Below are positions 481-32,380 of a DNA stretch of 34,703 bases, piece after piece (position 1 is the stretch's first letter; each line of letters starts with the position of its first letter). Location: the NCBI GenBank assembly GCA_018821305.1, contig JAHJMN010000107.1, forward strand, positions 1-34,703, in the 5' to 3' direction. Source of the stretch: Myxococcota bacterium. GTDB taxonomy: Bacteria; Myxococcota_A; Polyangia; HGW-17. A model generated the notes under the pieces. It was not told the origin of the DNA. It did not search any database and worked only from the letters and a program-made list of their open reading frames with translations. Position numbers and translations under genes: made by a program.

Positions 481-1449
481 ATGAGCAGACTTACGGTTAA
501 ACAGCTTTTAGAAGATGGCGGAAAATCCCTTGAACTTTCACTAGTTGACGGTTCTGACGGCCTCTGGCACGACCTTTCAGACAGCAGATATTTCAAAGCA
601 GGATTGTTGCTTACAGGACTTGAGATTAATAAAGGTAAGCATGGAATAGTTATTTTAGGGTTCACAGAAATATCTTTTCTGTCCAACCTGCCGGACAATG
701 AAAAGCTTTTTCAAGCATGCACCACTCTTCTTGAAACGGAGCCTGCATGTATAATTATTACTAAAAATCAGGAGATTCCTACTCTCCTAAAAAAAATGTC
801 TCTTGAAGCCAGTATTCCTCTTCTCACCACACCTAAAAAAACCGGTGATTTTCTTGATTGTCTGGATTCGTTTATTGATGAATATACAAAAGAAATTACA
901 AGAATGCATGGTGTTTTAGTTGAAGTTCTTGGTATTGGAGTTTTTCTTACGGGGCCAAGCGGAATTGGGAAAAGTGAAGCTGCATTGGAACTTGTGACAA
1001 GAGGTCACAGGCTTGTAGCGGATGACACTGTTGAAATTCAAAAACATCACCCTGATGTGTTGGAAGGCAGAGGTACACCAATAATCAAGCACCACATGGA
1101 AATACGTGGACTTGGAATAATAAATGTTCCTTTCCTTTTCGGTCCAGCCAGCGTCAGGGACAGAAAAAAAATTGAAATTGCTATTCAACTTGAGGAATGG
1201 GATGGAACAAAGGAATATGAAAGGCTTGGAAGTGACGAAAAACATCTCGAAATACTTGGTATAAAAATTCCACTCATAATCCTGCCCGTACGACCAGGTA
1301 GATCTCTTGGAACAATCATCGAAGTTGCAGCAAGAGATCAGTTGCTTAAACAAAGAGGAATTAACAGTTTTCAGATGTTTCAGGAAAAGCTCAACGAAGC
1401 TCTTATAAACCATGTTCCTGAGGCTGTTATAGAACAGGATATTGAGTAA
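481..1449 (+). CDS. hprK: HPr kinase/phosphorylase
   Basis: A 322-residue protein of normal family length. It phosphorylates HPr on its regulatory serine and, in the bifunctional enzymes, removes that phosphate. The N-terminal half (about 1-130) is the DRTGG-like domain. The catalytic half carries His143 in RMHGVLVEVLG, the P-loop GPSGIGKS (158-165), Asp181-Asp182, the HprK signature EIRGLGIINV (207-216) and a C-terminal VRPGRSLGTIIEVAA segment. A weak AGG ribosome site precedes ATG 481. It is first in a run with rapZ, ptsH, ptsI and a PrsW-like gene, and its substrate HPr is two genes downstream. In many Proteobacteria hprK follows rpoN-hpf-ptsN; here repeats lie upstream and the window ends before any such genes could be seen. 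Confidence 0.96.
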   Translation: MSRLTVKQLLEDGGKSLELSLVDGSDGLWHDLSDSRYFKAGLLLTGLEINKGKHGIVILGFTEISFLSNLPDNEKLFQACTTLLETEPACIIITKNQEIPTLLKKMSLEASIPLLTTPKKTGDFLDCLDSFIDEYTKEITRMHGVLVEVLGIGVFLTGPSGIGKSEAALELVTRGHRLVADDTVEIQKHHPDVLEGRGTPIIKHHMEIRGLGIINVPFLFGPASVRDRKKIEIAIQLEEWDGTKEYERLGSDEKHLEILGIKIPLIILPVRPGRSLGTIIEVAARDQLLKQRGINSFQMFQEKLNEALINHVPEAVIEQDIE

Positions 1450-1450
1450 A

Positions 1451-2296
1451 ATGAGATTGGTTATTGTAACCGGAATAAGCGGTGCAGGTAAATCGGTAGC
1501 ACTGAGATCTCTTGAAGATCTCGGTTTTTTTGCCGTTGACAATCTTCCCGTACCTCTAACTAACGGGTTTGTTCAACTTCTGGTAAGAGATGGAGAGTTT
1601 GATAAGGCTGCCATAGCTATTGATATCAGAAATGCGGATTTTCTCAATCAGTGGGCAGAAGTTAAAAAATCAATCGAAGACCAGAATCATACAGTCCAGA
1701 TCCTATTTCTTGAGGCGGATCGGGATATCATTCTGAATCGTTTCAAAGCAACCCGGAGACCACATCCTCTTGGCGGGATGGATCTACTTGAGACTATTAC
1801 AAACGAAAGAAAATTACTCAAAACCCTTCGAGATGACGTAACCTGGGTTCTTGATACATCAGATCTCACAGTTCATGAATTACGCGGTAAAGTTTTTGGA
1901 ATATTCAATGATCTGGAAAAACCAAGATTAATAATAAACGTTTGTTCCTTTGGCTTTTCATCCGGCTTACCGATGGAAAGTGATCTCGTTTTTGATGTCC
2001 GTTTTCTACCTAATCCGTATTTTATTTCTTCGTTGAGGGAGCTTACTGGAAAAGATAGACCCGTAGGCGACTATATTGAATCAAAAGAAATTTTTGTGGA
2101 ATTTTATTCAAAACTTGAAGATTTCATTATTTTTCTGATTCCACAGTATGAAAAAGAAGGGAAAAGTTATCTCTCAATAAATATAGGATGTACTGGGGGA
2201 AAACACAGGAGTGTCTATACTGCAGAAAAAATTGCTTCCACTTTGAGGAAGTTGAATTATAAAGTATCTGTAAACCACAGAGATATTTATAAATAA
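1451..2296 (+). CDS. rapZ: RNase adapter / nucleotide-binding protein RapZ (YvcJ)
   Basis: The family binds nucleotides and, in enterobacteria, delivers small RNAs to RNase E; in Bacillus the homologue YvcJ is a GTPase linked to competence. Visible are the P-loop GISGAGKS near the N-terminus, the RRPHPL segment after the Walker B-like FLEAD, and the C-terminal GCTGGKHRSVY motif that is nearly invariant in the family. The start at ATG 1451 leaves one base after the hprK stop. An in-frame TTG at 1442 would add three residues and overlap hprK, but gains no conserved residues. At about 281 residues it has normal length. The pairing hprK-rapZ next to HPr is common in Proteobacteria with a regulatory PTS. 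Confidence 0.94.
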   Translation: MRLVIVTGISGAGKSVALRSLEDLGFFAVDNLPVPLTNGFVQLLVRDGEFDKAAIAIDIRNADFLNQWAEVKKSIEDQNHTVQILFLEADRDIILNRFKATRRPHPLGGMDLLETITNERKLLKTLRDDVTWVLDTSDLTVHELRGKVFGIFNDLEKPRLIINVCSFGFSSGLPMESDLVFDVRFLPNPYFISSLRELTGKDRPVGDYIESKEIFVEFYSKLEDFIIFLIPQYEKEGKSYLSINIGCTGGKHRSVYTAEKIASTLRKLNYKVSVNHRDIYK

Positions 2297-2311
2297 TTTG
2301 GAGAATCAGTT

Positions 2312-2584
2312 GTGAGTAATACACATGAAAAAGATGTTGTTCTTGTAAATGAACAGGGTCTTCACACAAGGCCTGCAAGAATTCTGGTTGAAAAGACAAC
2401 CCGATTTAAAAGCGAAATAGAAATAATACTTAATGACTATGTCGCCAATGGAAAAAGCATTATGGGTCTACTTGGACTATTGGCATATAAGGGCTGTAAA
2501 CTTAAAATAAGGGCTACCGGTGAAGATGCTGAGGAAGCAGTGAAAGAGATTGCAACTCTCATTGAAAGTGGATTTGATGAATAG
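2312..2584 (+). CDS. ptsH: Phosphocarrier protein HPr
   Basis: A small (90 aa) phosphocarrier that accepts phosphate from EI on a histidine. His18 sits in QGLHTRPA, the equivalent of His15. Ser49 in NGKSIMGLLGL is the equivalent of Ser46, the target of HPr kinase. Both sites being intact fits the hprK gene upstream. It starts with GTG at 2312, supported by GGAG at 2300-2303; the ATG inside the reading frame would cut off conserved sequence. It lies 15 bases after rapZ and 6 bases before ptsI. Confidence 0.96.
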   Translation: MSNTHEKDVVLVNEQGLHTRPARILVEKTTRFKSEIEIILNDYVANGKSIMGLLGLLAYKGCKLKIRATGEDAEEAVKEIATLIESGFDE

Positions 2585-2590
2585 GTAACC

Positions 2591-4381
2591 ATGAGTGAAA
2601 TAAATATATTCGTCTCAGGCAAGGGAGTTGTTCCAGGAATATCTATAGGTAGAGCCTATGTGGTTCAACCCAGACTGGTTTCAAATATTCAACGCAATAT
2701 AAGTGAAGGTGAAATTCCTATAGAAATACAAAGATTTAATATTGCTATTGATAAAAGCTATGAACAACTTGAAGCCCTGAAACAAAAAATAGGAGATGAA
2801 TATCGGGATCCCGGACATATACTCGAAGCACATCAAATGATGCTTAAGGACGAAGAATTACGCAAAGACGTGATTCAGTTTATCAGTGACAGACTCATTA
2901 ATGTAGAGTGGGCTATTAATCTCGTAATGGAGAAATGGGAAAAGATATTTCTTCGTGTTGAAAATGAGTATTTTAACGAACGACTCAGTGACTTACGATT
3001 TGTGACCTATAGAATTTTACGAAATATTTCCGGTCTCGAGTGTTTTTCACATGATCCTCCCCCTGATGCTATCGTTATTGCTCCAGAACTAAGTCCGGTA
3101 GAAACAATTCAGTTTTGTAAAAATGCTGTTACAGCCATTGTTACGGAAAAAGGTGGAGCTACTTCTCATACGGTAATAATCGCAAAATCATTTGAAATTC
3201 CAACTGTTATCGCAGCAAGGGGCATACTTGATCTTATAAAAAACGGAGATCTTATTCTGGTAAACGGCAATACGGGCGAAGTTATTATTAACCCCGATGT
3301 AAATCATGTCCGGGAATACCGACGTCGTATGATTAAGATTCTGGCCATGGAACAGAATCTTATAAATGAGAGCCATACTGCTGCTGTTACCATGGATGGG
3401 GTGGAGCTTACAGTATACGCTAATGTTGATTTTGCAGAAGAAATTGAAAAAGCAATAACTCATGGAGCAGAAGGAATTGGTTTATATAGAACAGAATTCC
3501 TCTTTTTATCAAACATTAATGAAGCGATGAATGAAGAGCTCCATTTCAGGGATACCTTGAATCTGATGGAAAAATGGAAGGGCGGCCCAATTACCATCAG
3601 GACTTTTGATCTTGGTGGCGATAAATTTCCTACAGAAGGTGGAGTTCTAAACGAACCCAACCCGGCTCTAGGTCTACGCTCAATAAGACTTGCATTAAAA
3701 AACAGGAAACTTTTTAAAGCACAGATCCGGGGAATACTCAGAGCCCACAGTTCAATGCCTGAAGTTAAACTTAAGATTATGTTCCCTCTGATTTCTTCCT
3801 GGGATGAACTTAACGAAGCCAAGGATGTTTATTATGAATGTATGGAGGAGTTGACTCAGGAAGGACATGAACTAAGCGAAAACATTTCTATTGGAACAAT
3901 GATCGAGCTTCCTTCTGCCTGCATGATAAGTGATATTCTGGCTAGAGAAGTGGATTTTTTCTCCATTGGATCAAACGATCTTATTCAGTACTCACTGGCT
4001 GTTGATCGAGCAAATGAAAATATTTCTTACCTATACAGACCTCTACATCCCGGCGTATTGCGAATGTTAAAATTTACCATCGATAGTGCATTAAATGCCG
4101 GAATCGAAGTTTCCATATGTGGTGATATGGCAACTATGCCCATAGGTGCTCTTATACTTATGGGGTTTGGTTTAAGAACATTTTCAGTTCCTCCTTCATT
4201 TATACCACATCTTAAAAAAATGTTCCGTCAGGTGTCCGCCGCAGAAATCAAAGACCTCTCCGAACAAGCATTAAATATGGCATCACATCACGATATCAGC
4301 GAGTTTTTCAGAAATAAACTTGGTTCAAGGCTTCAGGAAGAAATCTGGCCCGAAGAGGGAGAACAGGATTCAGTTAAATGA
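2591..4381 (+). CDS. ptsI: Phosphoenolpyruvate-protein phosphotransferase (PTS enzyme I)
   Basis: Enzyme I moves phosphate from phosphoenolpyruvate to HPr. The 596-residue product is slightly longer than the usual ~575. His193 in GGATSHTVIIAKS is the phosphorylated histidine. The PEP-binding barrel shows RTEFLFL, FDLGGDKFP, the metal/PEP segment GSNDLIQYSLAVDR and the catalytic cysteine region SICGDMA. No EIIA, EIIB or EIIC gene is in the window, so this EI-HPr-HprK set may serve regulation rather than sugar uptake. Its stop overlaps the start of the PrsW-like gene by four bases. Confidence 0.97.
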   Translation: MSEINIFVSGKGVVPGISIGRAYVVQPRLVSNIQRNISEGEIPIEIQRFNIAIDKSYEQLEALKQKIGDEYRDPGHILEAHQMMLKDEELRKDVIQFISDRLINVEWAINLVMEKWEKIFLRVENEYFNERLSDLRFVTYRILRNISGLECFSHDPPPDAIVIAPELSPVETIQFCKNAVTAIVTEKGGATSHTVIIAKSFEIPTVIAARGILDLIKNGDLILVNGNTGEVIINPDVNHVREYRRRMIKILAMEQNLINESHTAAVTMDGVELTVYANVDFAEEIEKAITHGAEGIGLYRTEFLFLSNINEAMNEELHFRDTLNLMEKWKGGPITIRTFDLGGDKFPTEGGVLNEPNPALGLRSIRLALKNRKLFKAQIRGILRAHSSMPEVKLKIMFPLISSWDELNEAKDVYYECMEELTQEGHELSENISIGTMIELPSACMISDILAREVDFFSIGSNDLIQYSLAVDRANENISYLYRPLHPGVLRMLKFTIDSALNAGIEVSICGDMATMPIGALILMGFGLRTFSVPPSFIPHLKKMFRQVSAAEIKDLSEQALNMASHHDISEFFRNKLGSRLQEEIWPEEGEQDSVK

Positions 4382-21022: not shown

Positions 21023-21168
21023 TAGTTCGTGTCCTGAAATTCGCTTCGCGAAGGATTTTATTAAAAATCCTAACAGGCCACTATTAATATTTTCACCACC
21101 TTGCGGTTACTGTCCTGAATCAAAAACTGGCAAAAAGTCTGATTTTGGGTATTTCAGGACAGTAACTA
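21023..21168 (+). repeat. Family B composite element, copy B2 (146 bp)
   Basis: The left end is TAGTTCGTGTCCTGAAAT. The right end, on the other strand, is TAGTTACTGTCCTGAAAT. Inside are hairpin 1 TTCGC-TTC-GCGAA (21040-21052), hairpin 2 AGGATTTT/AAAATCCT (21052-21071), then a TAACAGGCCACTA block shared with copy B4. A second inner copy of the end (GTTACTGTCC..., from 21106) pairs with the right end exactly as in copy B3. The minus-strand gene at 21107-21622 runs into this element and stops in it. Confidence 0.7.
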
Positions 21169-21622
21169 TATAACAATATTTTTTCATTGATTCAGATTTT
21201 TCCTCAAGAAAGCGTAAAAACGATTTACCTGAAGCATTTCTCTGCTTTTGATTGTCAGCATAATAGGGAGTAGGGGAACTTTTGAAATCAGATCCATCTG
21301 CGACATCAGACACATCGTTAATATCGGAAACATCTGTAATATCCTCGATATCCTGAACATCACCATCAATAATATCCGAAGCATCAACAATATCCGCGTC
21401 TGAAATTACATCGTTAATATCGGAATCGACAATATCCTGAATATCCAAAATATCATCAGTATCGGAATCAATCGCCGCATCGGTAGTAATTATTGAGCAA
21501 CTGCCATTCAAACATTTTTCCGTTGAAGCACAGTCAGAATTTCGAAGACAAGGATTCCCCGCGGGATCGCAAGATGAAAATAATAAAAACATAACCGAAA
21601 GAATTTGAAGTAAATTTTTCAT
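21107..21622 (-). CDS. Asp-rich lipoprotein with Cys cluster, 3' end replaced by a repeat
   Basis: The 171-residue product starts with a lipoprotein signal (MKNLLQILSVMFLLFSSC, Cys18 with Asp at +2). A cysteine cluster follows, NPCLRNSDCASTEKCLNGSC (25-42), a pattern common in myxobacterial and bradymonad surface proteins. Residues about 48-113 are a low-complexity chain of Asp-Ile/Asp-Val units that may bind Ca2+ or act as a spacer. The last ~20 codons and the TAA stop are encoded by repeat B2, so the original C-terminus was probably lost or changed when the repeat arrived. It starts within the end of the upstream gene (ATGA overlap). Confidence 0.7.
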   Translation of the reverse strand: MKNLLQILSVMFLLFSSCDPAGNPCLRNSDCASTEKCLNGSCSIITTDAAIDSDTDDILDIQDIVDSDINDVISDADIVDASDIIDGDVQDIEDITDVSDINDVSDVADGSDFKSSPTPYYADNQKQRNASGKSFLRFLEEKSESMKKYCYIVTVLKYPKSDFLPVFDSGQ

Positions 21623-22191
21623 TGTCCATACCTTGTAATTGGGAAGGAAAACCCGATACTGAGATCAATTTTTGAGATGGTCGTATTTTCAGGCAAATCG
21701 CTTCCCCATAAAAATATTCCTAAAGATAATTTTAAATGGACCACTATTTTTCCAAGATCTGTATGAAATAAAACTCCTACTTCTGGTCCAAATAAATTAT
21801 ATTCAGATATTTTAACATGTGCGCCTCCATATATTGTAAAGCCCATGTAATCTCCCATTTTTGCTGTATATTCAATTTTAGGAACAAGTCCGAGAGTTGT
21901 CCTTGATTCCAATTCAACATTAATTTCCAGTGCATATACTGGAAAATCTTCATCATCAAAACGGGCACGTATGTCTGCAGATACAAAGGCTGGACTTCTT
22001 TTTGTGTGAGAAGTATCAGTCTTTCCGGTAGTAAAACCCGACCCTGCACCAAAGCGACCATCGAAGGTAACGCTCTGAGCCTGTACAACACCAGGGAAAT
22101 AACAACATATATAATATATAGTAATGAGAGCAAATATTAAATGTACATTTCTGTACATAAAAACATTGGTGTAATTTTTAGTATAGCCCAT
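21619..22191 (-). CDS. Exported beta-rich (outer-membrane-like) protein, unknown
   Basis: About 190 residues. I place the start at ATG 22191 because GGAG lies seven bases upstream; the reading frame is open to 22272 but those starts lack a good site. A long basic n-region leads into the hydrophobic core LIFALITIYYICCYFPG and a VQAQS cleavage site. The mature part is made of alternating hydrophobic stretches with glycine turns (FDGRFGAGSGF, MGFTIYGGAHVK, IVVHLKLSLGIFLWG, IDLSIGFSFPI) typical of a small beta-barrel. Its stop overlaps the next lipoprotein gene, so the two are probably made together at the envelope. Confidence 0.68.
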   Translation of the reverse strand: MGYTKNYTNVFMYRNVHLIFALITIYYICCYFPGVVQAQSVTFDGRFGAGSGFTTGKTDTSHTKRSPAFVSADIRARFDDEDFPVYALEINVELESRTTLGLVPKIEYTAKMGDYMGFTIYGGAHVKISEYNLFGPEVGVLFHTDLGKIVVHLKLSLGIFLWGSDLPENTTISKIDLSIGFSFPITRYGQ

Positions 22192-22252
22192 TTCAATCTC
22201 CGCGTTTTTCACAGATCGAGTCTTTTTGAAAAAAAACTTCATTTTTCGCATT

Positions 22253-22274
22253 TTTTGTACGTATATGTACAAAA
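22253..22274. promoter_or_regulatory. 22-base palindrome, likely operator
   Basis: TTTTGTAC (22253-22260), GTATAT, GTACAAAA (22267-22274): perfect 8-bp arms. It lies 61 bases upstream of the beta-barrel gene start and about 240 bases upstream of the sigma-54 promoter at 22513, so it could serve either gene, as repressor operator or as an activator site. The rest of the 378-base gap (22192-22569) is AT-rich, with the sigma-54 promoter at its right end. Confidence 0.5.
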
Positions 22275-22484
22275 CATCGAATTATATGTTCTATAACGTA
22301 CAGGAAAATCGAATAGAGTTCTTTATTCGCGTTTTCTGATTGTTCGTTTATGTGCATTTTATAAAACATTTATTCTTTTCCCTATTGAAAAGATATCGAT
22401 CCTCAAGGATTTTGTTTTTAATTAAATCGAAATATTTTTCCTCAAATGTGAATTTATATTTCAATACAACGAGTTACAAAAAAT

Positions 22485-22498
22485 GTCAACTTTTTGAC
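22485..22498. promoter_or_regulatory. Short inverted repeat next to the sigma-54 promoter
   Basis: GTCAA, four bases, TTGAC, ending 14 bases before the -24 element. It may be a binding site for a regulator; at this size it could also be chance. Confidence 0.25.
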
Positions 22499-22512
22499 CT
22501 TTCCTGTCAGAA

Positions 22513-22528
22513 TGGCACGGACGTTGCT
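22513..22528 (+). promoter_or_regulatory. Sigma-54 (RpoN) promoter
   Basis: TGGCACG, four bases, TTGCT: an essentially perfect match to the -24/-12 consensus TGGCACG-N4-TTGCW. Transcription would start near 22540, about 30 bases before the ATG at 22570. This excludes the earlier in-frame ATG at 22537 as a useful start. Confidence 0.85.
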
Positions 22529-22569
22529 TACCTGTTATGCCGCTGATTAATGAGGAAGGAGTCCACACC

Positions 22570-23274
22570 ATGATTAATGCTTCAATATCAAAAAATAACG
22601 AAATTCTGGAACAACATTTACCTCTTGTTAAGAATCTCGCATGGCATTACGCCTCTAATCTTCCACCGGAAGAAAGGGAAGAAATTTTCAGTGCTGCCAC
22701 CCTTGGGCTTGTTGAAGCATACAACCGCTACACGCATGAGAAACAAACTTCATTCTGGACTTACGCTCAAAACAGAGTAATAGGAGCAATCCAGGACGAT
22801 CTCCGGAGAAGAGATCCACTAACTCGTTCTCAACGACGAAAAGTAAAAACTGTTGAGAGAGCATTCACCGAACATACTCGTTTACATGGGGAACTCCCTT
22901 TGGAAGAACAACTCAGTGTTGTTACTGGAATGAGTATTGAAGACATTCGTAAAGCAAAAACCCTCAAACAGGCTGTTCAATTTGTCTCCTTTGAAGAATA
23001 CGAAACCAGAGAAGACGGATCTACTTCCTCCAGAATAGCTGATGATTCCGCAATTGAACCGGAACAGGCGGTTATGGACATCGAAAGAAAAACAGTTCTC
23101 GCTGATATGGTTAATTCATTGCCTGAAAGGGAGAAGGTTGTCGTTGAACTTCTCTACTACAGTGGAAAAACTCCCAGAGAAGTTTCAGATCTACTAGGAG
23201 TTACAGAGGGTAGAGTAAGCCAAATCAATAAAGCTGCCGTTGAGAGACTTCGAAAAAGGGCGTCTTCTCTTTAA
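22570..23274 (+). CDS. RNA polymerase sigma factor, FliA/WhiG (sigma-28) type
   Basis: About 234 residues with regions 2, 3 and 4 in order. Region 2 reads HLPLVKNLAWHYAS ... AATLGLVEAYNRYTHE, followed by the sigma-28-like AIQDDLRRRDPLTRSQRRK. Region 3 contains GELPLEEQLSVVTGMSIEDI. Region 4 reads LPEREKVVVELLYYSGKTPREVSDLLGVTEGRVSQINKAAVERLR, split here by a helix-turn-helix. The start is ATG 22570, with AGGAAGGAG at 22553-22561; the sigma-54 promoter at 22513 supports this. Members of this group drive late flagellar genes or sporulation and stress genes; no anti-sigma factor (FlgM) or flagellar operon is adjacent. Repeat A3 follows the stop. Confidence 0.88.
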   Translation: MINASISKNNEILEQHLPLVKNLAWHYASNLPPEEREEIFSAATLGLVEAYNRYTHEKQTSFWTYAQNRVIGAIQDDLRRRDPLTRSQRRKVKTVERAFTEHTRLHGELPLEEQLSVVTGMSIEDIRKAKTLKQAVQFVSFEEYETREDGSTSSRIADDSAIEPEQAVMDIERKTVLADMVNSLPEREKVVVELLYYSGKTPREVSDLLGVTEGRVSQINKAAVERLRKRASSL

Positions 23275-23283
23275 ATATTTCAC

Positions 23284-23499
23284 TATACCGCTTTCTTAGT
23301 AATACGATAGAGCCCCTGATTGTCCTGTTCCTGCTACTGAGTTCCTGTTTCCCTGAAATTTTAAACAGGGACACAGGTAGTCAGGCAAACAGGATCCCGG
23401 TTCAGGTCATAAACATTCAACATCAAAGCATAATTACAAATGACAGGATGAAAACAAGTACTTTTCCCGTTTCGATCCTTTTATTCCGCAAGCGAACTA
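23284..23499 (+). repeat. Family A element, copy A3 (216 bp, internal deletion)
   Basis: The left end is TATACCGCTTTCTTAGTAA. The right end, on the other strand, is TAGTTCGCTTGCGGAATAA, more decayed. Compared with A1 it lacks about 30 bases just inside the left end (the AAAGAAAATCTTCAGGAA part) but keeps the CCTG-rich palindrome (about 23318-23405). It starts 9 bases after the sigma-factor stop and could act as that gene's terminator. It fills most of the 256-base gap. Confidence 0.7.
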
Positions 23500-23530
23500 A
23501 GAAGGAGCAGGAAAAGCCTGCACCGAAGTT

Positions 23531-24622
23531 TCAGTCATCTTTTTCATGAAGAATTCTGTAGTGGCACCAGGATGGTTGATTTGTCTCGGGATCCCAGATG
23601 TGAAGTGAATTCCCCTGACAAACGGGAAATTCAGGACAATTCTCACAAATCCCTTTTTTCATCCAGACTCGATCACGGAAAATATCGTAGCGATTTTCCC
23701 ATACATTGACAAATGAATCAGTCTTTATGTTGCCCTGAGCAAACCACTGAGGTAAGTTAGGACATGCAGAAATGGTTCCGTCTGCCATAATCCCACTTAT
23801 ATTAACACCAGCCCTGCAAAAGTAAGGCGTATCTCTAAGTTTGTTTTCATAGTCCCAACCAAGCCAACCTTCTTCACTTAGATTTACATGAAAATCTTCT
23901 TTTTTTCCACGCTCCCGCAGTTTTATCATCTCAGGAATTAACATCCGAAAATGATCCGGGGTCAGCAGAACATCTTCATTATTTTTTGCGCGACCTATTG
24001 GAAAAATATTGAAAACACGCCAATGAGTCGCTCCGGAATTAGTAACTATCTGATATGTTTCCTCAAGAAATGGTATTAATCGGGGAGTTACACATGTAAT
24101 GGCTTCAACAACTGGAATTCCCTCTTCTTTTAAAAACCCCAGAGCAGAAACAGCTCTGGAAAAAGAACCACTTCTGTTTCTTAGCCAATCATGAATTATT
24201 TCTGGTCCATCAAGAGATACAACAATACTTGATATACCTGTTGCGGATATTATTTGGGCAACTTTTTTATTTAGAGCCCAACCATTGGTAACCATGCCCA
24301 GCCTGAACCCCAGGTCCCTTGCTTTTGAAAGAATTAAAAAAAGATCTCTTCTAACGAGGGGCTCTCCACCCGTAACTACGAGCATTATTTTGGATGCGTC
24401 TTGATGATCAGCTATTTCCCGGAATGTTTTGAGAATAACTTCCTTATCAAGCCCCTTTATGGAAGCATCCGCAGTGCAATCAGAACCGCAATGAAGACAT
24501 GATAAATTGCATTGCCGAGTGGTTTCCCAAAATAGATATCTAAGTTCATGAAGTTCTATTTCAAATTTGGTGTATAGTTGCCAGCGATGATTAAGAAATG
24601 AGTGGACAACGCTTTGAAACAT
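23531..24622 (-). CDS. Radical SAM/SPASM protein (resembles the rSAM/lipoprotein-system family)
   Basis: About 363 residues. The start is set at ATG 24622 because GAGG lies six bases upstream; a TTG at 24634 overlapping the previous stop is the alternative. Cys38, Cys42 and Cys45 (CNLSCLHC) bind the radical SAM cluster, and GGEP follows at 85-88. The C-terminal SPASM domain has Cys269, 287, 326, 329, 335 and 353 (CRAG, ACPNLP, GICENCPEFPVCQGN, WCHY), enough for auxiliary clusters. The phrases LHELRYLFWETTRQCNLSCL, SLDGPEIIHDWLR and NIFPIGRA recall TIGR04133, known from Bacteroidetes beside a lipoprotein; I recall this without a search. SPASM enzymes usually modify peptides or proteins. The substrate is not evident. 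It is last in the grpE-dnaK operon. Confidence 0.85.
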   Translation of the reverse strand: MFQSVVHSFLNHRWQLYTKFEIELHELRYLFWETTRQCNLSCLHCGSDCTADASIKGLDKEVILKTFREIADHQDASKIMLVVTGGEPLVRRDLFLILSKARDLGFRLGMVTNGWALNKKVAQIISATGISSIVVSLDGPEIIHDWLRNRSGSFSRAVSALGFLKEEGIPVVEAITCVTPRLIPFLEETYQIVTNSGATHWRVFNIFPIGRAKNNEDVLLTPDHFRMLIPEMIKLRERGKKEDFHVNLSEEGWLGWDYENKLRDTPYFCRAGVNISGIMADGTISACPNLPQWFAQGNIKTDSFVNVWENRYDIFRDRVWMKKGICENCPEFPVCQGNSLHIWDPETNQPSWCHYRILHEKDD

Positions 24623-30739: not shown

Positions 30740-32380
30740 TCAAAACTTTACTGTCAGAGAAACACCAGAAGATTCTCCGCTGAAATATGGGGTAATCCCA
30801 ACACTTGTTGTTCCAATATTTATGGTTTGATCAATTGTCGAATCCGGGCCAGAATCTGCAAATGTTCGGTAGATTGCAATAACAAATGCAAGTGCACTGA
30901 CTCCATAAAGTGCGTTGGCAGCAATTGAGTAAATTTTGCCATCCTGAAGTCTTGAGTCATTGCTGTACACAGGCACTCCATTCTGGATATCCTTTTTGTA
31001 ATCATCCTCCATTTTTTTGGATAACCCTCCGAGCCAGACGGCGCCACCTATAGATCCAAGCCCTATGACATATGCTGTTATTGCTCCGGTACGATTAGGA
31101 GCACTGTTTAAAGTAACATTGTAGTTTTTATGATCTCCAGGCTCTAAATCAATGCCTTTTTCAACAGATTTCATTCCTTTTTTTGAAATTCGCATCCGAT
31201 GCTTCCCGCTTTTCACGGGAATTTTAAGGCATGGTGCAACACATATGGTTCGACCATCAATTTTTACGGAAGCATTCCGGACATTTTTGCCAAAAACGCT
31301 GATGAAGGATATAGGTGTTTTTTTAAGATTGTAGTTAAATTGATTAGATTCCCCTACTTTAACAACGATATCTTTATATATCTCATCATACCCCTCACGA
31401 TAGATTAAAAGTTTATGTGCCCCTGGTTTTAAAAATCCACTCCAGGGAGTTTTACCTATTGGACCCGTTTTCTTTGATCCAGGATAAATAAATGCATCGG
31501 GAACATCCGTACTTATTTGAACCCATGCAAGATTTGTATCTTTAGTTAGAGAAACAAATATTTCCATAAAGCGATTTGATGTAACGGAGATTTCCTTTTT
31601 AACTGTTTGAAATCCTTTGTGTTTGAAAATAATTATATGTTTTCCTTTGGGTATACTTCCTTCCCATGGAGTTTTACCCAGCATATTCTTTTCATCATTC
31701 AGATAAAGCTCTGCTCCAGGAGGATCGCAAGAAACACTAACTACGCTCTGAGTTTCAATGGGGGGAAGAATAATCACCGGTTTTTTGACATCAGGGGTTT
31801 TACCGTCGGGCTTTTTCACATCTGGAGTTTTGCCGTCGGGCTTTTTCACATCTGGAGTTTTGCCGTCGGGTTTTTTGACATCGGGAGTTTTACCATCGGG
31901 TTTTTTGACATCTGGAGTTTTACCGTCAGGTTTTTTGACATCTGGAGTTTTACCGTCGGGTTTTTTGACATCTGGAGTTTTACCATCGGGCTTTTTGACA
32001 TCAGGGGTTTTGCCATCGGGCTTTTTTCCCACTGATTCTTTTTTTATTTTTATTAATTTATCTAAAAGTCTTATTCTGGCTTGAATAGAAGAAACATTCC
32101 TTGCTTTAGGAGCAGCGGAAATGTATTCAATAAAATATTTTTTTGCCAGTTCATAGTCTTCGATTTTTTCATAGCAAACAGCAGCGTTATACAAGAAAGC
32201 AGCCATGGGTTTTTCTTTCCAGGCTTCAAGAAATCTAACAGCAGCTTTTTTAAATTCCCCGGCTCCAAACAGGGCTTGACCCGCCTCAAAATTTTCCTTG
32301 GCTTTCTTAAGGGATCCCGCATGAGAAACCGAAACGGGAACAACCAGTAGAAAAGATATGAATAACAGTAATCTGGCCAT
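30740..32380 (-). CDS. TPR and PEGA-domain envelope protein with KPDGKTPDVK repeats
   Basis: 546 residues. Signal peptide (1-21), a TPR-like helical part (about 25-110, with AGEFKKAAVRFLEAW and KIEDYELAKKYFIEY), then eight exact copies of a ten-residue unit, KPDGKTPDVK (about 121-200). Three PEGA-like beta domains follow (about 210-280, 285-355, 357-425; each with a GKTPW or comparable turn and a KGKH/PGAH/SGKH strand), then two hydrophobic helices (about 435-455 and 490-512) and a beta tail. The KP-rich linker could span the periplasm or bind peptidoglycan through charge; this is inference. It is first gene of the envelope operon, with GGAAGG before ATG, and repeat B4 lies 52 bases upstream. 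Confidence 0.8.
   Translation of the reverse strand: MARLLLFISFLLVVPVSVSHAGSLKKAKENFEAGQALFGAGEFKKAAVRFLEAWKEKPMAAFLYNAAVCYEKIEDYELAKKYFIEYISAAPKARNVSSIQARIRLLDKLIKIKKESVGKKPDGKTPDVKKPDGKTPDVKKPDGKTPDVKKPDGKTPDVKKPDGKTPDVKKPDGKTPDVKKPDGKTPDVKKPDGKTPDVKKPVIILPPIETQSVVSVSCDPPGAELYLNDEKNMLGKTPWEGSIPKGKHIIIFKHKGFQTVKKEISVTSNRFMEIFVSLTKDTNLAWVQISTDVPDAFIYPGSKKTGPIGKTPWSGFLKPGAHKLLIYREGYDEIYKDIVVKVGESNQFNYNLKKTPISFISVFGKNVRNASVKIDGRTICVAPCLKIPVKSGKHRMRISKKGMKSVEKGIDLEPGDHKNYNVTLNSAPNRTGAITAYVIGLGSIGGAVWLGGLSKKMEDDYKKDIQNGVPVYSNDSRLQDGKIYSIAANALYGVSALAFVIAIYRTFADSGPDSTIDQTINIGTTSVGITPYFSGESSGVSLTVKF
31781..32020 (-). repeat. Eight 30-bp tandem repeats inside the TPR-PEGA gene
   Basis: Eight contiguous 30-base units encode KPDGKTPDVK eight times. 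The bases differ among copies only at third positions and at a few wobble sites while the peptide is unchanged, so selection holds the peptide. There are no spacers, so this is not a CRISPR array. Confidence 0.95.

Follow-up and report, generated by a model that had tools for sequence, protein, structure and literature searches.

In standard accounts, the cascade from sigma-54 to sigma-28 belongs to the flagellum. The non-flagellate myxobacterium Myxococcus xanthus has a FliA-like sigma factor, SigF. This factor is described as a regulator of S-motility genes in PMC9548883, which cites Ueki et al. 2005, and it provides a possible precedent for non-flagellar use, likened to the factor examined here by description; no statement on the sigma-54 dependence of sigF was found in the literature searched. 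In Vibrio cholerae, fliA is RpoN-dependent and falls in the FlrA/RpoN early class (PMC3930126). As appears to be the case at the present locus, a FliA-type gene is transcribed there by sigma-54, giving a sigma-54 to sigma-28 cascade; however, the V. cholerae cascade targets the flagellum, whereas the gene described here lies outside flagellar clusters and is retained by relatives in which no flagellar genes were detected. What would be new, judging from sequence, is a cascade uncoupled from flagella whose promoter and upstream array are conserved. We consider it likely that an activator and sigma-54 switch on a second, non-flagellar FliA-type sigma factor for a different programme.

The window (the whole stretch of DNA analysed, 34,703 nucleotides) corresponds to contig C125 in a draft genome of 5.2 Mb (G000) from an uncultured, myxobacterium-like species, whose close relatives with names are bins of uncultured Deltaproteobacteria/Myxococcota. 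Orthologues of the sigma gene were compared in six genomes of the family (G000, G001, G002, G004, G006, and G007), of which G001 belongs to the same genus. The features of the promoter and gene were as follows:

22485 to 22498, no strand: palindrome GTCAA-N4-TTGAC just 5′ of the −24 element, kept as GTCA-N6-TGAC in G001 only
22513 to 22528, + strand: sigma-54 −24/−12 promoter element TGGCACG-GACG-TTGCT, by consensus match and conservation
22539 to 22540, + strand: predicted transcription start, about 12 bases past the −12 GC, from standard sigma-54 geometry
22553 to 22561, + strand: ribosome binding site AGGAAGGAG, by sequence, serving the ATG at 22570
22570 to 23274, + strand: gene for a FliA/WhiG-family sigma factor (P0001, 234 aa), a paralogue of flagellar FliA, assigned by Pfam, TIGR02479, and clade

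The promoter element (TGGCACGGACGTTGCT) matched the sigma-54 consensus TGGCACG-N4-TTGCW, which agrees with that of PMC7910581, at 12 of 12 positions on the + strand, with GG at −24, GC at −12, and the standard spacing all present. It was the sole match in the window at two or fewer mismatches (about three expected by chance) and lies 57 bases from the ATG at 22570; an alternative upstream ATG at 22537 coincides with the predicted transcription start. Genome-wide, three exact sites were found, and the 30 sites with at most one mismatch compare with 14 in a reversed control, such that the motif by itself is only moderately convincing. Sites matching at 10 or more of 12 positions, with GG and GC held fixed, numbered 6 per 32 kb of intergenic and 20 per 270 kb of coding DNA in sampled sequence, a ratio that is only indicative because the sample was partly picked around such matches. 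The strong evidence is conservation: a site matching at 10 to 12 of 12 positions was found at a similar position upstream of all six orthologues, while the rest of the upstream DNA had diverged, and the shuffle P-value was ≤0.005 for each. A sigma-54 promoter 57 bases before a FliA/WhiG-type gene, as reported in the preliminary description, is confirmed on the basis of this conservation. That the site is real but minor or accidental, with the gene expressed chiefly from another promoter, appears highly improbable; the genome has many sites with one mismatch, most of them within genes, but this one is kept in the six orthologues and in independent lineages, and a search of the + strand ahead of the sigma gene found no sigma-70-like promoter.

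The product, P0001, is a compact protein in which Pfam detected sigma-70 regions 2, 3, and 4, with region 3 exactly at the cut-off. Its score of 185.8 bits against TIGR02479 (FliA/WhiG) was by far the best among sigma families and narrowly missed the cut-off of 189.6; we therefore term it FliA/WhiG-like, a divergent relative. When solved structures were searched, WhiG- and FliA-type factors ranked first. In a tree with long branches, and with deep placement correspondingly unsure, P0001 and its five family orthologues grouped in a clade of their own, which excluded the flagellar FliA encoded by G000. No adjacent anti-sigma gene was evident among the small open frames at 23270-23540. In each of the six genomes the sigma gene adjoins tRNA-Gln and prs, and in none is it near flagellar genes; the gene upstream of it differs in G002 and in G004, G006, and G007. 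Two further family members, G003 (77% complete) and G005 (73% complete), had no detected orthologue. Relative to G001, the sigma gene and two neighbours (window 21107-23274 versus L044 9500-11587) are inverted, the promoter having moved along; this inversion may be genuine or may have arisen during assembly. Elsewhere in the window, a protein with a tandem PDGKTPDVKK repeat is encoded at 30740-32380, and a row of genes at 481-4381 resembles, from reading of the translations only, HPr kinase, RapZ, HPr, and PTS enzyme I.

The preliminary description had the cascade standing alone, without flagellar genes, FlgM, or an enhancer-binding protein; at the level of the genome this was not supported, as all of these are encoded on other contigs. 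The search for flagellar genes that it had suggested located rod genes in both G000 and G001, a separate flagellar FliA gene beside flgF/flgG (C172 in G000, C72 in G001), and FlgM on C77 of G000. Near-consensus sigma-54 sites precede flgA-, flgD-, and fliD-like genes (named by sequence resemblance), and sites of the sigma-28 type lie ahead of flagellin in G001 and of MCP-like genes in G000 (the loci of the two kinds of site being C77, C3, C25, and C109 of G000 and C19 of G001). A classic flagellar hierarchy thus seems to exist elsewhere in these two genomes. These sites, together with the conservation in P0001 of residues that we take to be the −10 contacts of Escherichia coli FliA, would suit a factor belonging to that hierarchy, whose gene sigma-54 would transcribe alongside those for hook and rod and which would share late flagellar and chemotaxis promoters with FliA. 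We regard such a role as quite unlikely, as it runs counter to (i) the separate clade of P0001 and its orthologues, apart from flagellar copies; (ii) the position of the gene, away from flagellar genes in all six genomes; and (iii) the retention of gene and promoter in four relatives, G002, G004, G006, and G007, in which no matches to flagellar rod genes or FlgM were found (drafts 92%, 88%, 87%, and 70% complete, respectively). Because of the last point, flagellar motility, one of two targets entertained at the outset, is unlikely. The other, some different programme, fits best.

The association was also examined across the class, using 30 FliA-family genes with loci from this and related genomes, with flagellar genes defined by coordinates as those near rod genes. 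Of the 15 genes lying outside flagellar clusters, 14 were preceded by a sigma-54-type site matching at 10 or more of 12 positions, versus 0 of the 15 inside, where the 15 non-flagellar genes represent about four lineages and not 15 independent cases, the threshold was picked after an earlier listing of sites, and the flagellar FliA genes appear to sit within gene clusters, in which a promoter of their own is less expected. At G015:C200, G039:C197, G054:C1, G052:C77, G014:C119, and G031:C63, FliA-family genes are followed on their own strand by FlgM-like frames; despite such a frame, G039 (94% complete) had no flagellar rod match. It is possible, and we suggest it only tentatively, that FliA-family paralogues of the class were repeatedly taken up for a non-flagellar programme under sigma-54, in some cases along with a neighbouring FlgM-like gene. 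Were this so, FlgM-type control must in some of them work without flagellar secretion.

GTAC words were found to be clustered upstream of the sigma gene, and dyads of the form TGTACA-N4-TGTACA precede all six orthologues. Those of the window, with offsets measured from the sigma-54 site, were as follows:

22142 to 22157, no strand: dyad TGTACATTTCTGTACA at −371, a perfect match near the start of a divergent gene, its offset not kept in all relatives
22256 to 22271, no strand: candidate enhancer dyad 1, TGTACGTATATGTACA, at −257, offset shared with G001, G004, G006, and G007
22287 to 22302, no strand: candidate enhancer dyad 2, TGTTCTATAACGTACA, at −226, offset shared with G001, G006, and G007
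22341 to 22356, no strand: candidate enhancer dyad 3, TGTTCGTTTATGTGCA, at −172, offset shared with G001, G004, G006, and G007

The offsets were near constant in five of the six genomes, at about −258/−227/−174: −257/−226/−172 in the window, −259/−228/−174 in G001, and −260/−228/−176 in G004, G006, and G007 where detectable, some of the dyads being weak; those of G002 were −243/−203/−152. Shuffle P-values ranged from 0.002 to 0.018, except for 0.15 in G004, which has weaker dyads, and are optimistic because the test was devised after the repeats had been noticed in the same sequences. Genome-wide rarity of the exact form, GTACA-N4-TGTAC, provided a check independent of shuffling. It occurs once in G001, at the sigma gene. 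G002 has two copies, one at the sigma gene and one within a gene, and G000 has three, of which the copy at the sigma gene is the sole intergenic one and the other two are within genes. No exact copy was found in the genomes of G004 and G006. The conserved dyads are a candidate enhancer for the sigma gene. Upstream activator sites of the NifA type have the form TGT-N10-ACA, which the dyads contain; the resemblance is in spacing only, and no NifA-like activator was identified for them. Enhancers are usually found 80 to 150 bases upstream (PMC7910581), and the dyads are somewhat more distant than this. It is also conceivable, though rather unlikely, that they serve the divergent membrane-protein gene (21619-22272), beside whose likely start the perfect dyad at 22142-22157 is found, or a repressor, instead of an enhancer-binding protein of the sigma gene; against this, the offsets from the sigma-54 site remain similar although G002 has a different upstream neighbour, as do G004, G006, and G007.

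Turning to the sigma-54 machinery, G000 has one RpoN, on another contig, and 18 matches to enhancer-binding proteins, about 17 of them convincing, likewise on other contigs. An enhancer-binding protein of about 945 aa (hydrophobic N-terminal part, GAF, and AAA+) seemed at first to be restricted to genomes that have the sigma gene; broader searching recovered it from G005, G008, G010, and G011 as well, and it was rejected as the activator on this distribution. Another enhancer-binding protein gene (G000:C204:36056 and G001:C75:64159) is preceded in both genomes by a sigma-28-type site and is found, within the family, only in these two flagellate members. The preliminary description had also suggested a search for sigma-28 sites; classic sites, TAAA-N14-16-GCCGATAA, were enriched in none of eight family genomes. 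With one mismatch allowed and N15 spacing, 55 sites were counted in G000 versus 38 in the control and 36 versus 30 in G001, and there was no excess in the non-flagellate G004, G006, and G007. A conserved GCCGATAAT promoter between prepilin-peptidase-like and PilZ-like genes in G006 and G007 was considered as a target and rejected: it can also be read as sigma-70 TTGAAA-17-GATAAT, and in other genomes the orthologous upstream regions carry a TATAAT-like sequence in place of GCCGATAAT. Several pattern and distribution searches were made for a regulon, an activator, and an anti-sigma factor, and the sigma-54 site and the dyads were the only features to withstand scrutiny.

In the mechanism that we favour, an enhancer-binding protein at the TGTACA-N4-TGTACA dyads, 170 to 260 bases upstream, would become activated, and RNA polymerase with sigma-54 would then transcribe 22570-23274 from the −24/−12 promoter at 22513-22528. 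The product would be a second sigma factor of the FliA/WhiG type, separate from the flagellar FliA that this genome also encodes, and this second factor would direct a non-flagellar programme. We infer that promoter and dyads function in these roles, that the dyads are bound by a single dedicated activator, and that the regulon is non-flagellar. A flagellar-type cascade has apparently been reused to switch on another gene set, since a conserved sigma-54 promoter and upstream sites precede a second, non-flagellar copy of FliA. The host group is known for surface motility and development, and the conserved dyads would offer a direct route to the activator and its signal. If true, repeated non-flagellar recruitment would make this cascade a general regulatory module.
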